Shown here one piece after another: positions 33,998-41,487 of a stretch of 64,000 bases of DNA; the stretch's first letter is position 1, and each line of letters starts with the position of its first letter. The position numbers and the translations under genes were made by a program. The notes beneath the pieces are model-generated. The model saw only the letters and a program-made list of their open reading frames with translations. It had not been told where the DNA came from and made no database searches. Source of the stretch: Nisaea sp. (lineage in GTDB: Bacteria > Pseudomonadota > Alphaproteobacteria > Thalassobaculales > Thalassobaculaceae); the NCBI RefSeq assembly GCF_017640745.1, contig NZ_JAEPQA010000003.1, forward strand, positions 124,001 through 188,000, read 5' to 3'.

Positions 33998-34591
33998 TCA
34001 GATGGAATCCGTTGCCTCGTCGCAGGGAATTTGTTCGGGTTTCTGATCCACGAGCCAGTGGATCTCGAACATCAGCTTGCGGCGCTCGTCGCTCGGCCAT
34101 TCATAGAGGCTGAGCCATTCGAGCGCCTTAAGGCCCTCGATGGCGAGGAAGGCCAGCATCGCGCCACGCGGGTTTTCCGAGGTGTCGCGCACGCGGGCCA
34201 CGCGCCGCGCCATCATTTCGCGCACCGGCGCCCGGAGGTCGGTATCGCCGGCGACAGAGGCGCACAGGCTTAGGGCGACGGCCCGATCCTCGTCCGAAAG
34301 CTCGCGGGATTCAGCGATCAGGCGCGCTCGGATCGCCGCATTGGGTTCATTCGGGCCGAGGCGGTTCTGGATCTCCTCGATGCGCGCGTCTTCCGCCGCG
34401 ATCCGCCGCTCGATCACAGCCTTCATCAGGGCCTGCTTGTTCTTGTAATCGTATAGCACGCTGGCCTTGCTGATGCCGGCCTCGGTCGCCACCGCCTCCA
34501 GGGTCATGTAGGCCGCGCCATCGCGCGCCGCGACGGTCTGGGCGGCATCCAGCACGGTTTCTCTGTCGATCGTTCGCGGTCGTCCGACCAT
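33998..34591 (-). CDS. TetR family repressor of the pump 2 operon
   Basis: A 197-residue regulator starting MVGRPRTIDRETVLDAAQTV, with the recognition helices in EAVATEAGISKASVLYDYKN. The C-terminal half (about 120 residues) is the ligand-sensing domain and matches the TetR_C group that ends in a WLVDQKP segment. Being the first gene of the operon with the adaptor and pump, and having a palindrome 20 bases upstream, it is very likely a self-regulating repressor of its own efflux operon. Ligand unknown. Confidence 0.92.
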   Translation of the reverse strand: MVGRPRTIDRETVLDAAQTVAARDGAAYMTLEAVATEAGISKASVLYDYKNKQALMKAVIERRIAAEDARIEEIQNRLGPNEPNAAIRARLIAESRELSDEDRAVALSLCASVAGDTDLRAPVREMMARRVARVRDTSENPRGAMLAFLAIEGLKALEWLSLYEWPSDERRKLMFEIHWLVDQKPEQIPCDEATDSI

Positions 34592-34628: not shown

Positions 34629-35114
34629 ATAATTATGGCTTGGCAGAAGTCAACCTTCGCACCTGCAAAAAATGATCCTGGTCACGCCAGGATGTGCCTA
34701 TTCGGAGAACTTGACCGATAGAACGGGAGAGCGGTGCAGACGGCCCATTCTCCTTGCGCATATACAGCTTCTGCACGGCGGGGGGCGACGTCTAGCGGTA
34801 AGGCCTCGAAAGGCCGGGTCCGCATGGAAGCGCAATTTCATTCGGGCCGGTTTTGATCGGCCCGATTTGTCTGATCGCGGCGGTTCAACTTCGGGAATAC
34901 CGGAATACGAAGTCCACTTTTCCGGAATTGGTATAATTTCTAAATCACACCTGTAAGTTGTTGATCTCGATCATCTTTTGTGCGGGGTGAGGAAGATTTT
35001 TGTTATTTTATATGTGGTTAATTTCCAAGTTCATGAAAATTGCGTTAACTAAAATATAAACTTTAGAAACTATTAATGGTAATCGTTGGGATCAACGTCG
35101 GGTTGGAGTTCGAG
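34629..35114. other. intergenic region with an AT-rich promoter block
   Basis: About 490 bases without a convincing gene between the divergent TetR and globin-chemoreceptor genes. The left part is GC-rich and non-coding in all frames I examined. From about 34930 to 35110 the sequence becomes strongly AT-rich (TTGTTATTTTATATGTGG, then ACTAAAATATAAAC), which is the likely promoter of the chemoreceptor gene. No known riboswitch fold is apparent. Confidence 0.5.
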
Positions 35115-36707
35115 ATGGATATTGGCCACGCGTCGCTGAATACCGATGACCGCATTTCCTTCATGCAGATCGATAAGAATGTGCGAGCCCTGCTGCGGGA
35201 TTTCCGCCCGGTGCTCGATCGGAATCTGAGCGCTATTCTCGACAAGTTTTACGACCATGTGCTGACCGTGCCCCAACTGGCTGAAATGTTCGTGTCGGAC
35301 GAACGTGTACGGCACGCGCGGGAAGGCCAGAGCAGTCACTGGAAACGTCTTTTTTCCGGGGAGTTCGGAACCGAATACTTCGACTCGATCCAGCGCATCG
35401 GGCGCGTTCACAATCGTCTCGGACTTGAACCGCGCTGGTACATCGGCGGCTATGCGGCGGCAACAACTGAACTGCATCGGCTTGCGATCGAGCATTGCAT
35501 GTCCGGCTGGCGCCGTGATGGCGCGGCGAAGAAAGCGGTGGCGCTGGTGCAGGCGATCGACAAGGCTGTGATGCTCGACATGGACCTCGCCATTTCCGTC
35601 TATCTGGAAGAGCAGTCGAACGATTTCCACAAGCGTCTCGAGGCGCTCTCGGATCAGTTCCAGGTCTCGATCACGGGCGTGTCCGACAATCTCATGGAGT
35701 CGGCATCCCAGCTCTCCGAAAGATCGGCAAGCATGACCGCGGGGGCGCGCAACTGTCTGGAACTGACCAAGGATGCCTCCCGTGGTGCGGCGCAGGCGAG
35801 CGAGAATGTGCAGAGCGTTGCATCCGCCGCCGAGGAACTTTCCGCCTCGATCGGCGAGATCTCGCACCAGCTTTCGGAGTCCAACAAGATCGCGCGCGAG
35901 GCCTCCACGGCGGTGGACAACACGAAACTGACGGTGGAAGGGCTTAATCAGGCGGCGGCGAAGATTTCCGGTGTCGTCAGCCTGATCCAGGACATTGCCG
36001 AACAGACCAATCTGCTGGCTCTCAATGCCACGATCGAGGCCGCGCGTGCGGGTGAGGCCGGGAAGGGATTCGCCGTCGTCGCTTCCGAGGTGAAGGCTCT
36101 GGCCAACCAGACGTCGAGCGCGACGGACGAGATCTCCGAGCAGATTTCCGGCATGCAGCAGGTCGCCGAGGAGACCCGCAACGGGATCGAGAATATTTCG
36201 GCCGCGATGGCCAAGGTGGGAGATTCCTCCGCGGCGATTTCCGCCGCCGTCGAGGAGCAGGATGCGGTTACCAGGGAGATATCGCAGAGTGCCGCCGAGG
36301 CGCATCGGGGCACGGCCGAAGTGCAACAGGCGGTACGGGCGGCCGAGGAATCCGTCACCAGATCGGCGGAATTGTCGGAAATGGTCTCGGAGTCTGCGTC
36401 CTATGTCACCGAACAGGCAGGCGAACTGAAAAGCGAAAGCGGGGACTTCATCGAGAAGATCCGTCGCGCCGACCGGCGCAGCGAAGACCGCAGCGAGCGT
36501 TCCGAACCGGTCTCTCTCGAGATTGAAGGCACGGTCTTCGAGGGGAATATGAAGGATCATTCGTCAAAGGGCCTGTCCGTCAGGATGGACACGAGCGGCA
36601 TCAGAATTGGAGCCACCGGTAAAATTCTCTCCGGATCGTTCGGTCGTGGCGAGAACATCGAGGTCGTCGGAAAAACGCCGGTACAAGTCAGTCTCAAGAT
36701 CGTTTGA
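35115..36707 (+). CDS. globin-coupled chemoreceptor with C-terminal PilZ domain
   Basis: A 530-residue soluble methyl-accepting protein in three parts. Residues about 10-170 are a globin-coupled sensor domain with proximal histidine H99 in [20 protein letters not shown], so it should bind haem and sense oxygen, as HemAT does. Residues about 180-445 are the MCP signalling coiled coil with the hairpin tip [20 protein letters not shown]. Residues about 450-530 are a PilZ domain with RSEDR (RxxxR) and DHSSKG (DxSxxG), the c-di-GMP binding pattern. There are no membrane helices. ATG 35115 has GGAG upstream; the first in-frame ATG at 35076 has none. A PAS_5 gene follows 24 bases later. Confidence 0.93.
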
Positions 36708-36731: not shown

Positions 36732-37454
36732 GTGTTGTCAGAGGCGGTCGAGAAATGGTATCCGCCCGCATCCCGCCAGGCGGTAACGAGGAGCAACGGG
36801 TTGGCCGAGCAGCGTGGTCGGGTCGAGCAGAACGTCGAGCCCGAATTCAACGATCCGTCGAAGGAGCGGATCGATGAGGCGGCCCGGCATATCGTTGCTG
36901 GCCTGTCTTTCGGGGCGATAGACCCTCGATGCACAGAACTCTGGTTCGCCGACGAGAAGCGCGACCTTCCCGAGCCAAAGCTCCAGTTCCTGCTCGATTA
37001 CTGGCTTAACCTGCAGGAGACGCTCGGCTGTCTGCCAGGGCGCAAGGATATCGACATTCTCGAACTCAGGCAGGCAATCGGGAACATCATGATGCTCGAG
37101 CCCCTGGATGACGGGTTCGACGCACGGTACCGGGTCTATGGCACCGGGATTGCCGACTACGCGGGCAATGACTGGACCGGGCAGACCGTTTCCGACCTTG
37201 CGCTGAAGACCGGCACGCCTTCGGCACTGCTCTACCGTGCGTGCTATCTCGCCGCTTACCGGACCTGCCGGCCGATTTACTCCGAACATGTTTCGGCGGC
37301 ATGGCTCTCGCCGAAGGCGTGGCGCCGCCTCATCCTGCCTTATGGCCGGCGCGAGTCCGGTTGTGACGGCTTCATGGTTGGCAACATTCCCGTCGAGCCG
37401 CGAGACATCGGAGACGGAGCCGCGGCACGAAGCCTGATTTACCGGAACCGATAA
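36732..37454 (+). CDS. PAS_5 domain protein
   Basis: A protein of up to 240 residues with one PAS_5-type domain in its second half. Typical segments are LGCLPGRKDIDILELRQAIG, YRVYGTGIADYAGNDWTG and a closing RLILPYGRRE. PAS_5 proteins are abundant in Rhodospirillales and usually stand alone, without an output domain. The first 60 residues are charged and not conserved in style, and the start is unsure: GTG at 36732, TTG one codon later, or a later TTG/GTG. Its position 24 bases behind the globin chemoreceptor suggests co-transcription. Ligand and partner unknown. Confidence 0.75.
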   Translation: MLSEAVEKWYPPASRQAVTRSNGLAEQRGRVEQNVEPEFNDPSKERIDEAARHIVAGLSFGAIDPRCTELWFADEKRDLPEPKLQFLLDYWLNLQETLGCLPGRKDIDILELRQAIGNIMMLEPLDDGFDARYRVYGTGIADYAGNDWTGQTVSDLALKTGTPSALLYRACYLAAYRTCRPIYSEHVSAAWLSPKAWRRLILPYGRRESGCDGFMVGNIPVEPRDIGDGAAARSLIYRNR

Positions 37455-37571: not shown

Positions 37572-38339
37572 ATGAGCGAAGATCTGCTGCCTCCGCCGCC
37601 GCAAGCGGACTGGGCCTATTTCCTCGATTTTGACGGAACGCTGGTCGATATCGCGCCCCGTCCCGAGGCGATCCGGGTCTCCGACGGTCTGTCGGAGCTG
37701 CTCTCCGCATTCAGCCTTGCCGCCGAAGGGGCTCTCGCTGTGGTCACCGGCCGCAGTCTCGCAGACCTCGACCGTCACCTCGCCCTGCCGCAGGTCGCGG
37801 CGGCCGGCGTCCACGGACTGGAACTTCGCGGCGGTACCCGCCCCAATACTCCCGAGCGCACGGCTCTAAAACATGCGCTGACCAAAGTGCGCGCCTCGGC
37901 GGAACAACTCGCGACCCGGCACGTTGATCTCCGGATCGAAGACAAGGGGGAAGCCATCGCTGTGCATTACCGGGCCGCGCCGGACCTTGGACCGGAAGTT
38001 GTCAAAGCCCTTGCGGTCGCGGTCGCGGAAGCGGGCGACCTGCTGACGCTGCTCCAGGGCAAGATGGTGGTCGAGGTCAAGCCGGCCGTCGCCAACAAGG
38101 GGGCCGCGGTCGAAGCCTTCCTGGCGGACGCGCCGTTCGCCGGCAGACGCCCCTGCTTTATCGGCGACGATGTTACCGACGAGGACGGATTCAGGGTGTG
38201 CAATGCGCGTGGCGGCATCTCGATCCATGTCGGACCAGCGGACGCCGTCACCGAAGCCCGCTACAGACTGGCCTCGCCGGCAGCCGTCCATGACTGGCTG
38301 GCACAACTCCTCGATCGCGAAAGAAGGACCGCTTCATGA
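37572..38339 (+). CDS. otsB: trehalose-6-phosphate phosphatase
   Basis: A 255-residue HAD phosphatase. Motif 1 is YFLDFDGTLVDIAPRP near residues 16-31, motif 2 is VVTGRS, and motif 4 is FIGDDVTDEDGF near residue 196; VEVKPAVANKGAAVEAFL carries the motif 3 lysine. It dephosphorylates trehalose 6-phosphate. A GAGG site precedes the ATG, and the stop overlaps the GH15 start as ATGA, so the genes otsB, GH15 and otsA are translationally coupled. Confidence 0.95.
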   Translation: MSEDLLPPPPQADWAYFLDFDGTLVDIAPRPEAIRVSDGLSELLSAFSLAAEGALAVVTGRSLADLDRHLALPQVAAAGVHGLELRGGTRPNTPERTALKHALTKVRASAEQLATRHVDLRIEDKGEAIAVHYRAAPDLGPEVVKALAVAVAEAGDLLTLLQGKMVVEVKPAVANKGAAVEAFLADAPFAGRRPCFIGDDVTDEDGFRVCNARGGISIHVGPADAVTEARYRLASPAAVHDWLAQLLDRERRTAS

Positions 38340-40123
38340 GCACGCTCGAACTCGGAATGATCGGAAATTGTGCGATCAGCGCCCTCATTGGCGAAACCGG
38401 GACGATCCAGTGGTGTTGTCTGCCGCGCTTTGACGGCGATCCGTTCTTCTCGGCGCTGCTGGCAAATGAAGAACAGGCTGCGGAGCGCGGCTTCTGGCAG
38501 GTCGAGATTGCCAATTTCGCCTCCTCCAGCCAACGTTACGAGCGAAACAGCGCGGTCCTCGTTACGACCTTGACCGACCGCGACGGTGCGTCTCTCGATA
38601 TTGTCGATTTCTGCCCGCGTTTCCGCAACTTCGACCGGATGTTCCATCCGACGATGATCGTGCGTCAGCTCCGGCCGGTTTCCGGCAGCCCGAAGGTCCG
38701 GGTTCGGATTCGCCCGACCGTCGATTACGGCTCGGGCCGGCCGACGATCACGCGCGGCTCGAACCATGTCCGCTTCGTCGGGCCGGATCTGACCATGCGC
38801 CTGACGACGGATGCGACGATCTCCTACCTGCTCGAGGAGACCTGGTTCCTGCTCGACCAGCCGCTCAGCATGATGCTCGGCCCGGACGAAAGCCTGACCA
38901 GTTCATTGGCGGAGACGGCACGGACTTTCCGGGAACGGACGGACAGCTACTGGCGCGAATGGAGCCGCGCGCTCTCCATTCCCTACGAGTGGCAGGACGT
39001 TGTCATCCGCTCGGCGATCACACTGAAACTGAGTACCTTCGAGGAAACCGGTGCCATCGTCGCGGCGATGACAACATCGGTGCCGGAGGCGGCGGGCAGC
39101 GAACGGAACTGGGACTACCGGCTCTGCTGGCTGCGTGATGCCTATTTCGTCGTTCATGCCCTGAACCGTCTCTCCGCGACCAAGACGCTGGAACGTTATC
39201 TCAATTATATCAGCAACATCGCCGTGAATGTCGGGAGCGAGGACCTGCAGCCGCTCTACGGCCTCTCGCTCGCGCACAAACTCGACGAGTTCACCGTCGA
39301 GGGACTTGCCGGATATCGCGGCAACGGGCCGGTCCGGGTCGGCAACGCGGCCTATACGCAGATCCAGAACGACGTCTACGGCGCGGTCATCCTCGCGGCG
39401 GCGCAGAGTTTCTTCGACAGCCGGATCGGCCGTCCCGGGAACGAAGATCTCTACCGCGAGCTTGCCAAGCTCGGACAGATGGCGGTGCAGAAATTCGACA
39501 AGCCGGATGCCGGGATCTGGGAGCTCAGGACCATCGCCTCGGTCCACACCTTTTCGGCACTGATGTGCTGGGCGGCTGCGGACCGGCTTGGCCGCATCGC
39601 GGACAGGATTGGTCATTCGGCGGAAGCGGCGGCCTGGCGCCAGCATGCTTCGGAAATGCGCCGCCGCATCATGGAAGAGGCCTGGAACGAGGAGCTCGGC
39701 AGCTACGTCTCCACCTTCGGCGGCGACCAGATGGATGCGAGCCTGCTGCTCATGCATGAGCTCGGCTTTCATGACGGCAAGGACCCGCGCTTCGTCGGCA
39801 CGGTGGCGATGATCGAGAAGCAGCTCCGCAAGGGAGATCATCTCTTCCGCTACATCGCGCCGGACGATTTCGGCGTGCCCGAAACCGCGTTCAACGTCTG
39901 CACCTTCTGGTTCATCGAGGCGTTGGCGGTCACCGGGCGCGAAGCCGAGGCGCGGGAGATGTTCGGGGGCATCCTTGCCTGCCGCAACAAGCTCGGGCTG
40001 CTTTCCGAGGATGTCGATCCGGAAACCGGCGAGCTCTGGGGCAATTTCCCGCAGACCTATTCCATGGTCGGCATGATCAAATGCGCCATGCGTCTCAGCC
40101 GGAAATGGGAGGATGCGTTTTGA
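38336..40123 (+). CDS. glycoside hydrolase family 15 protein
   Basis: A 595-residue GH15 protein, related to glucoamylases and bacterial trehalases. It has an N-terminal beta-sandwich (IGNCAISALIGETGTIQWCC, RFDGDPFF) and an (alpha/alpha)6 barrel with the acid-type segment NWDYRLCWLRDAYFVVHALN and, later, STFGGDQMDASLLLMHELGF. It is encoded between otsB and otsA with ATGA and TTGA overlaps, so it probably acts on trehalose or a trehalose-linked glucan in the cytoplasm; no signal peptide is present. Whether it degrades trehalose (trehalase) or an oligosaccharide is not decided by sequence. Confidence 0.92.
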   Translation: MSTLELGMIGNCAISALIGETGTIQWCCLPRFDGDPFFSALLANEEQAAERGFWQVEIANFASSSQRYERNSAVLVTTLTDRDGASLDIVDFCPRFRNFDRMFHPTMIVRQLRPVSGSPKVRVRIRPTVDYGSGRPTITRGSNHVRFVGPDLTMRLTTDATISYLLEETWFLLDQPLSMMLGPDESLTSSLAETARTFRERTDSYWREWSRALSIPYEWQDVVIRSAITLKLSTFEETGAIVAAMTTSVPEAAGSERNWDYRLCWLRDAYFVVHALNRLSATKTLERYLNYISNIAVNVGSEDLQPLYGLSLAHKLDEFTVEGLAGYRGNGPVRVGNAAYTQIQNDVYGAVILAAAQSFFDSRIGRPGNEDLYRELAKLGQMAVQKFDKPDAGIWELRTIASVHTFSALMCWAAADRLGRIADRIGHSAEAAAWRQHASEMRRRIMEEAWNEELGSYVSTFGGDQMDASLLLMHELGFHDGKDPRFVGTVAMIEKQLRKGDHLFRYIAPDDFGVPETAFNVCTFWFIEALAVTGREAEAREMFGGILACRNKLGLLSEDVDPETGELWGNFPQTYSMVGMIKCAMRLSRKWEDAF

Positions 40124-41487
40124 GCCGTCTCGTTGTCGTCTCCAACAGGGTTGCGCCGGTCGAGGAGGGCAAGGCATCCGCCGGCGGGCTCTCCGTCGCG
40201 GTCGAGGAAGCCTTCGCGAAGACGGAAGGGCTCTGGTTCGGCTGGAACGGGAAGATCGAGAATAACGGGCCGATCCGCGTCACGGTCGAGGAAGGCAAGC
40301 GGTTCGCCCGCGCGACCATGCCGCTCTCCCGCAAGGACTACAATGATTTCTATGTCGGCTATGCCAACTCGACGCTGTGGCCGCTGCTGCATTACCGGCT
40401 GAACGTGATGCAGTATTCGAGGGCCCATGCCGAAGGCTACCGGCGGGTCAACGAACTCTATGCGAACCATCTGGCGCCGTTGCTGAGGCCGGACGATCTG
40501 ATCTGGGTGCACGACTACCATCTCTTCGTGCTCGGCCGGGAACTGAAGCGCATGGGGCTGGAGAACCGTATGGGGTTCTTCCTGCACACCCCGTTTCCGC
40601 CGCCGGACATGCTCCGTGCCTGCAGCGAGCACGAGGAGATCGTCCGCGCGCTGTTCGACTACGACGTCATCGGCTTCCAGACCGAAAATGACGCCCGCAA
40701 CCTCTTGGAATATGTCCGCCGGCTCAGCGGCGGCACGGTGCGCGGCAACCGGGCGACCGCATTCGGCAAGACCGCGCGGGTGCAGGCCTTTCCCATTTCC
40801 ATCCGCCCGGACGAGATGGCGGAGGCGGCTGAGAAGGCCATGCGTTCGAACCGGGCGCGGCAGCTCGTGCGGTCGCTCGGCGGCAAGCAGCTGATCATCG
40901 GTGTCGAGCGGCTGGATTATTCCAAGGGCCTCGACAAGCGCTTCGCGAGCTACGAGCGTCTGTTGACGAATTATCCGGAAAATCGCGGCAGCGTGACGCT
41001 CATGCAGATCGCGCCGCCGTCCCGCGGCGATGTCCAGAGCTACCGCGAAATCAGGCAGGTGCTTGAAGGTATGGCGGGGCATATCAACGGGCAGTTCGCC
41101 GAGTTCGACTGGGTGCCGATCCGGTACCTGAACAAGAGCTACCGCCGCGATGTGCTGGCCGGTTTCTTCCGCATCGCTCAGGTCGGCTATGTCACACCTC
41201 TGCGCGACGGGATGAACCTCGTGGCAAAGGAATATGTCGCCTCCCAGGATCCAGTTGATCCCGGCGTGCTCGTGCTCTCCGAGTTTGCCGGCGCCGCGGC
41301 CGAACTCGACGGTGCCGTCATCGTGAATCCGTTCGACGAGGAAGGCATGATGGAGGGCCTGCAGACGGCCCTGCGGATGCCGCTCGGCGACCGCATCGAA
41401 CGCTACCAGTCGATGATGGCGGTCCTGCGAAAGAACGACCTGCAGAACTGGCGCCGTCGCTTTCTCGAGGCCTTGCGCGGGGCGTGA
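40120..41487 (+). CDS. otsA: alpha,alpha-trehalose-phosphate synthase (UDP-forming)
   Basis: A 455-residue GT20 glycosyltransferase that joins glucose from UDP-glucose to glucose 6-phosphate. Family segments include [10 protein letters not shown] at the start, [51 protein letters not shown] and [18 protein letters not shown]. The start is TTG at 40120, overlapping the GH15 stop as TTGA and preceded by GGGAGGATG. Its stop lies four bases from the stop of the convergent flavoprotein gene. With otsB it forms the OtsAB trehalose pathway for osmotic and desiccation protection. Confidence 0.97.

Follow-up and report, generated by a model that had tools for sequence, protein, structure and literature searches.

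The window, the 64,000-nucleotide stretch of Nisaea sp. DNA analysed here, contains an open reading frame on the forward strand that encodes a protein of 530 amino acids plus a stop codon. The start codon at 35115 agrees with the orthologues, whose alignment begins at the same codon, and a ribosome-binding-like GGAG lies upstream of it. The NCBIfam, Rfam and tRNA scans returned nothing useful. The gene, its domains and motifs, and its two neighbours are as follows.

33998–34591, − strand: upstream neighbour, TetR-family regulator of an RND efflux pair (Pfam; synteny; context only)
35115–36707, + strand: gene of the globin-MCP-PilZ receptor, 530 aa and stop (translation; orthologues sharing both ends; GGAG at 35105–35108)
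35145–35618, + strand: protoglobin domain, residues 11–168 (Pfam PF11563, E 3.9e-41; phmmer to HemAT 1or4)
35250–35252, + strand: Tyr46 codon, equivalent of HemAT-Bs Tyr70 (HemAT alignment; invariant in 10 aligned sequences)
35409–35411, + strand: His99 codon, proximal haem His, equivalent of HemAT-Bs His123 (HemAT alignment; invariant in 10 aligned sequences)
35871–36347, + strand: MCP signalling domain, residues 253–411 (Pfam PF00015, E 3.2e-33)
36009–36113, + strand: conserved MCP tip, residues 299–333 (within the MCPsignal domain)
36471–36704, + strand: predicted PilZ domain, residues 453–530, six-strand barrel ending at the last strand (Pfam 20.0/23.3 bits; AlphaFold2; Foldseek; VIA-align)
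36477–36491, + strand: RxxxR motif, Arg455–Arg459 (tail alignments)
36555–36572, + strand: DxSxxG motif, Asp481–Gly486, DHSSKG (tail alignments; Glu for Asp in the G001 orthologue)
36732–37454, + strand: downstream neighbour, PAS_5 protein (Pfam; synteny; context only)

The receptor tip of the MCP domain, read from the translation, is complete, as the initial annotation had stated. No transmembrane segment was found in the receptor (the 19-residue hydropathy maximum is 1.37) and no Pfam match to GGDEF. There are 231 residues beyond the tip motif compared to 152–155 in most of 80 fetched relatives, that is, 78 additional residues. The N-terminal protoglobin with its proximal histidine and the C-terminal MCP domain free of a membrane span place the protein in the HemAT class. 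The transmembrane segments and the periplasmic or PAS sensor of Tlp1/Aer-type receptors are absent; there is no hydrophobic segment, and a globin is present. The soluble globin-MCP-PilZ chain that had been proposed is thus borne out by the Pfam domains, the hydropathy profile and the predicted PilZ barrel.

The Protoglobin match scores 141 bits (Pfam). In the phmmer alignment to HemAT-Bs, His99 falls on position 123 and Tyr46 on position 70 of 1or4, residues that PMC13401364 names as the proximal His and distal Tyr, respectively. Both are invariant across the aligned sequences, and the earlier assignment of His99 as the haem residue holds. The position of the HemAT distal Thr95 is occupied by Gly71 in the receptor, and the ligand affinity of the globin may differ for this reason.

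The C-terminal tail is a PilZ domain as judged from its sequence and predicted fold, the sequence profile being the weak link and the fold prediction confident. The Pfam match covers residues 453–517 and model positions 1–67 of 102, and its score is 20.0 bits when the whole protein is searched, under the cut-off of 22.5 bits, but 23.3 bits when the tail is searched alone, which exceeds it. In the genome-wide Pfam scan this domain is, at 22.5 bits, the weakest of the 11 PilZ domains in the genome, and the tails of both orthologues score below the Pfam cut-off (21.8 and 19.7 bits). A profile constructed from 15 other fusion tails gives the window tail 31.8 bits. AlphaFold2, run on the tail with four relatives, predicts a six-strand barrel at residues 454–530 with a mean pLDDT of 86.4; the chain stops at the last strand, and the continuation seen beyond this strand in longer PilZ domains is missing. 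In a Foldseek search of the PDB, every one of ranks 1–20 is a PilZ domain or a chain that contains one, with a probability of 1.00 and query TM-scores of up to 0.75, the best E value being 2e-3 with none past 0.001, and the best structural matches are c-di-GMP-binding PilZ domains. VIA-align gave Z scores of 9.0, 8.9 and 8.9 for the top three structures, all PilZ-containing, with unrelated barrels lower down at a Z of about 6 to 7. The predicted barrel and the twenty Foldseek ranks place the architecture above chance.

The initial annotation described RxxxR and DxSxxG motifs, and in aligned register these are indeed Arg455–Arg459 and Asp481–Gly486. Across an alignment of 12 fusion proteins, the other 11 of which are 28–71% identical to the window protein, Arg454, Arg455, Arg459, Ser483 and Gly486 (RRxxxR and SxxG) are invariant. 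The strict pattern RRxxxR … (D/N)xSxxG fits 17 of 19 tails, although in the window group it caught RADRR (Arg451–Arg455) and not the aligned motif; the two exceptions are L014 (Glu for Asp) and L109 (Asn for Ser). The annotation had made its reading depend on conservation of the PilZ residues among orthologues, which is seen for both arginines, the serine and the glycine in both orthologues and in all 12 fusions, but not for Asp481, which is Glu in one of the two orthologues (G001, L014). The tail gives dN/dS values of 0.17 against G004 and 0.12 against G001 (globin, 0.07 and 0.14). These come from a simple pairwise method, one comparison per orthologue, and for G001 dS exceeds 1; on these sequence comparisons the tail is under purifying selection.

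The 4.5 Mb genome, in 83 contigs, encodes two protoglobins, both of which belong to globin-MCP-PilZ proteins. A first scan of genome contigs with the whole protein as query found no relative. The second receptor (L008), on contig C82, has 711 residues and an extra C-terminal domain. This domain, of about 170 residues (positions 1810–2307 of L008), follows the PilZ domain and contains the motifs GYIGTHN, VWNAANCRNRRIFDDRAG and DMGGG; it matches no PDB sequence, and nothing in Pfam above cut-off. Many alphaproteobacterial receptors carry it too, including some whose N-terminus is of another type (such as PAS, by eye). Seven of the 11 genomic PilZ domains are chemoreceptor tails (L002, L004, L005, L007, L008, L009 and the window protein), and the others are found in a cellulose synthase-like protein (L003, by eye) and three small proteins. 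In two of the MCP-PilZ tails, L004 (contig C11) and L007 (C2), DxSxxG appears by eye to be broken, reading DESGGT and DIGLGG, so some of the PilZ tails encoded here probably do not bind c-di-GMP.

Of four congeners, G004 (92%) and G001 (71%) have a full-length orthologue of the window gene, and all four have the C82-type receptor. In G004 and G001 the block RND pump, MFP, TetR, receptor, PAS_5, OtsB, GH15, OtsA and FAD oxidoreductase is conserved, which gives an orthologous locus in three species. G003 contains the same block minus the receptor only, indicating single-gene presence or absence. OtsB, the GH15 glycosidase with a trehalase-like N-terminus and OtsA together form a trehalose cluster (window positions 37572–41487), the GH15 protein of which has no match in congener G002. 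Neither the efflux operon nor the trehalose genes point to a function for the receptor. Among C82-type relatives in a sister genus (g12, L054–L057) the globin is decaying, with a score of 63.7 bits in L054 and of 20.2 bits in L057, which seems to have lost the proximal His; the MCP, PilZ and C-terminal domains persist in L054–L057.

To follow the architecture through the class we searched 385 alphaproteobacterial genomes with a profile, which listed 77 matches at E ≤ 1e-88 in 56 genomes. The globin part aligned in 61 of the 77 listed matches, and 12 of these 61 globin-MCP matches, in 11 of the 385 genomes and eight family codes, carry a PilZ-like tail (11 recognised by aligned range and L109 by frame length and tail sequence). 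Of ten of these proteins submitted to Pfam, eight lie above both the globin and PilZ cut-offs (L008, L079, L080, L084, L095, L106, L107 and L108), while L057 falls below the globin cut-off and L109 has no Pfam PilZ match. The combination of globin, MCPsignal and PilZ is thus not confined to the window protein, given the second copy in its own genome and these 11 genomes. At least four of 80 named globin-fetched loci also have a PilZ tail by motif pattern and Pfam (L140, L162, L169 and L184); the named loci are 80 of 175, six of the 80 end at a contig edge before the tail position and three more lack the tip motif. All four come from MAGs: an uncultured Telmatospirillum sp., two uncultured Rhodospirillales and an unclassified alphaproteobacterium. 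In L140, L169 and L184 (Telmatospirillum/Rhodospirillales MAGs) the chain finishes with a zinc-binding CZB domain, which might supply a third input. A further 398 genomes of the phylum, a sample that overlaps the class sample and draws many genomes from few families, gave no new case; the matches with an aligned globin that extended into the PilZ range came only from G000 (two proteins) and G003 (one). By sequence, the pairing of globin and PilZ is uncommon yet recurrent in several alphaproteobacterial groups.

To examine the origin of the fusion we used a tree of 72 receptors built with the tail left out; it is a quick, unrooted tree with long branches that drew on some of the 80 named loci. 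Eight of 79 chosen loci were dropped since they did not fit the tip pattern (L141, L150, L153, L156, L164, L170, L181 and L185), and PilZ labels were assigned by motif pattern, with the window protein, L013 and L014 set by hand. The PilZ label needs seven changes on this tree, and the strongly supported branches force at least four. The window group sits with L095, which has a PilZ domain, and with L015, L016 and L017, which do not (support 99), and the C82 type falls in a separate set (support 95). A single origin, with all PilZ-bearing rows in one clade, was rejected (AU p 0.008, for a group chosen after viewing the tree), indicating that fusion or loss was repeated; because the tree is unrooted, gain and loss of PilZ are indistinguishable on it. 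No decayed PilZ was recognised by eye downstream of the sister HemATs L015, L016 and L017 in three frames over 330 bases past the stop.

Among known systems, DosC and DgcO are globin-coupled diguanylate cyclases in which an oxygen cue leads to the production of c-di-GMP. They likewise couple a protoglobin to c-di-GMP, but they make the second messenger whereas the receptor described here would read it. The HemATs of B. subtilis and H. salinarum and Atu1027 of A. tumefaciens share with it the N-terminal protoglobin, the MCP signalling domain and solubility, and differ in that our receptor extends 78 residues past their usual end. That HemAT-type receptors and PilZ-tailed MCPs are each known, as the initial annotation noted, is corroborated by PMC13401364, PMC6406031 and PMC6454048. 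According to the first two, Tlp1 and Aer of Azospirillum brasilense are MCPs whose C-terminal PilZ domain tunes aerotaxis, and Aer without its PilZ domain did not restore aerotaxis (PMC6406031). A single receptor that integrates oxygen or energy taxis with c-di-GMP has thus been described before. Tlp1 and Aer are membrane proteins for which no globin is reported, Tlp1 with a periplasmic sensor of unknown ligand and Aer with a PAS-FAD sensor, whereas the receptor here is soluble and has a globin. Cbp1 of Azorhizobium caulinodans is, like the receptor here, a soluble MCP with a C-terminal PilZ domain bearing RxxxR; this domain binds c-di-GMP with a KD of 14.9 µM, and binding is abolished by R320A (PMC6454048). 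Only MA and PilZ domains, and no globin, are reported for Cbp1. In its available sections, the 2026 aerotaxis receptor review treats PilZ-coupled and globin-coupled receptors separately and names no fusion (PMC13401364). We found no description of direct globin sensing and PilZ in one receptor in the accessible portion of the open-licence PubMed Central literature. PMC12442639 states, in the part available, that several selected Magnetospirillum receptors, from a set including HemAT1/2, carry modules such as PilZ, and this is possibly an earlier notice of the globin-MCP-PilZ architecture.

We propose that oxygen binding at the haem would shift the coiled coil and alter CheA kinase activity at the tip, and that the PilZ tail, given its motifs, would bind c-di-GMP. 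Chemoreceptors are hairpin-shaped, and on this ground the PilZ barrel would be placed at the globin end of the receptor. The full-length AlphaFold2 model (pTM 0.46), in which residues 134–461 form an unbroken helix without a fold-back, was discarded for positioning PilZ beside the globin.

Could the tail be a chance PilZ-like extension of an ordinary HemAT? The below-cut-off score of the whole protein would allow this, but the barrel prediction, the PDB fold matches and the 31.8-bit match to the 15-tail profile rule it out, and dN/dS values well under 1 also oppose it; we assign it next to no probability. A weightier possibility, which we still consider unlikely, is that the PilZ tail no longer binds c-di-GMP and is retained as a structural or protein-contact module, as in non-canonical PilZ domains, leaving a sensor of oxygen only. 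The weak Pfam score, with two orthologue tails under the cut-off, the Glu in place of Asp481 in one orthologue and the broken motifs in L004 and L007 are in its favour. Against it, RRxxxR, Ser and Gly are invariant in the 12 fusions, and in Cbp1 it is RxxxR that proved essential; the same source describes the Ser as not critical in YcgR (PMC6454048).

As for the sensor, the globin might respond to NO, CO or redox state rather than oxygen, or be haem-free, as the Gly71 substitution and the sister-genus fusion L057, with no evident His and a 20.2-bit globin, could suggest; the invariant proximal His and distal Tyr and the strength of the domain match argue otherwise, making this improbable. Adaptation offers a further role for the tail. 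Many receptors carry a CheR tether motif at their C-terminal end, and MapZ is a Pseudomonas PilZ adaptor that acts on CheR in a c-di-GMP-dependent way. By analogy, the tail might recruit or block CheR under c-di-GMP control. The receptor ends in VSLKIV, without a tether-like pentapeptide, and MapZ-CheR1 structures (5xly_B and 5y4r_D) are among the fold matches, but these are not the best and the match is to PilZ in general, so we give this role a low probability. On balance, the protein is probably a HemAT-type aerotaxis receptor that is cytoplasmic and carries a PilZ domain at its C-terminus, and sequence and structure prediction suggest its roles in sensing oxygen and c-di-GMP.

Among the main signals that decide between swimming and settling are oxygen and c-di-GMP, and the receptors already known to respond to both detect oxygen by an indirect route, via FAD or an unknown periplasmic cue. 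More tentatively, and with somewhat less than even confidence, we suggest that globin-MCP-PilZ proteins are a recurrent, repeatedly assembled alphaproteobacterial class in which direct oxygen sensing is gated by c-di-GMP, PilZ possibly acting on methylation, and to which every protoglobin of this genome belongs. With a soluble receptor whose one chain combined a haem that can be read spectroscopically and a PilZ site that can be titrated, both inputs could be controlled in vitro and their effects followed through a common kinase output. A single receptor of this kind could let a swimming cell weigh oxygen against its swim-or-settle state.
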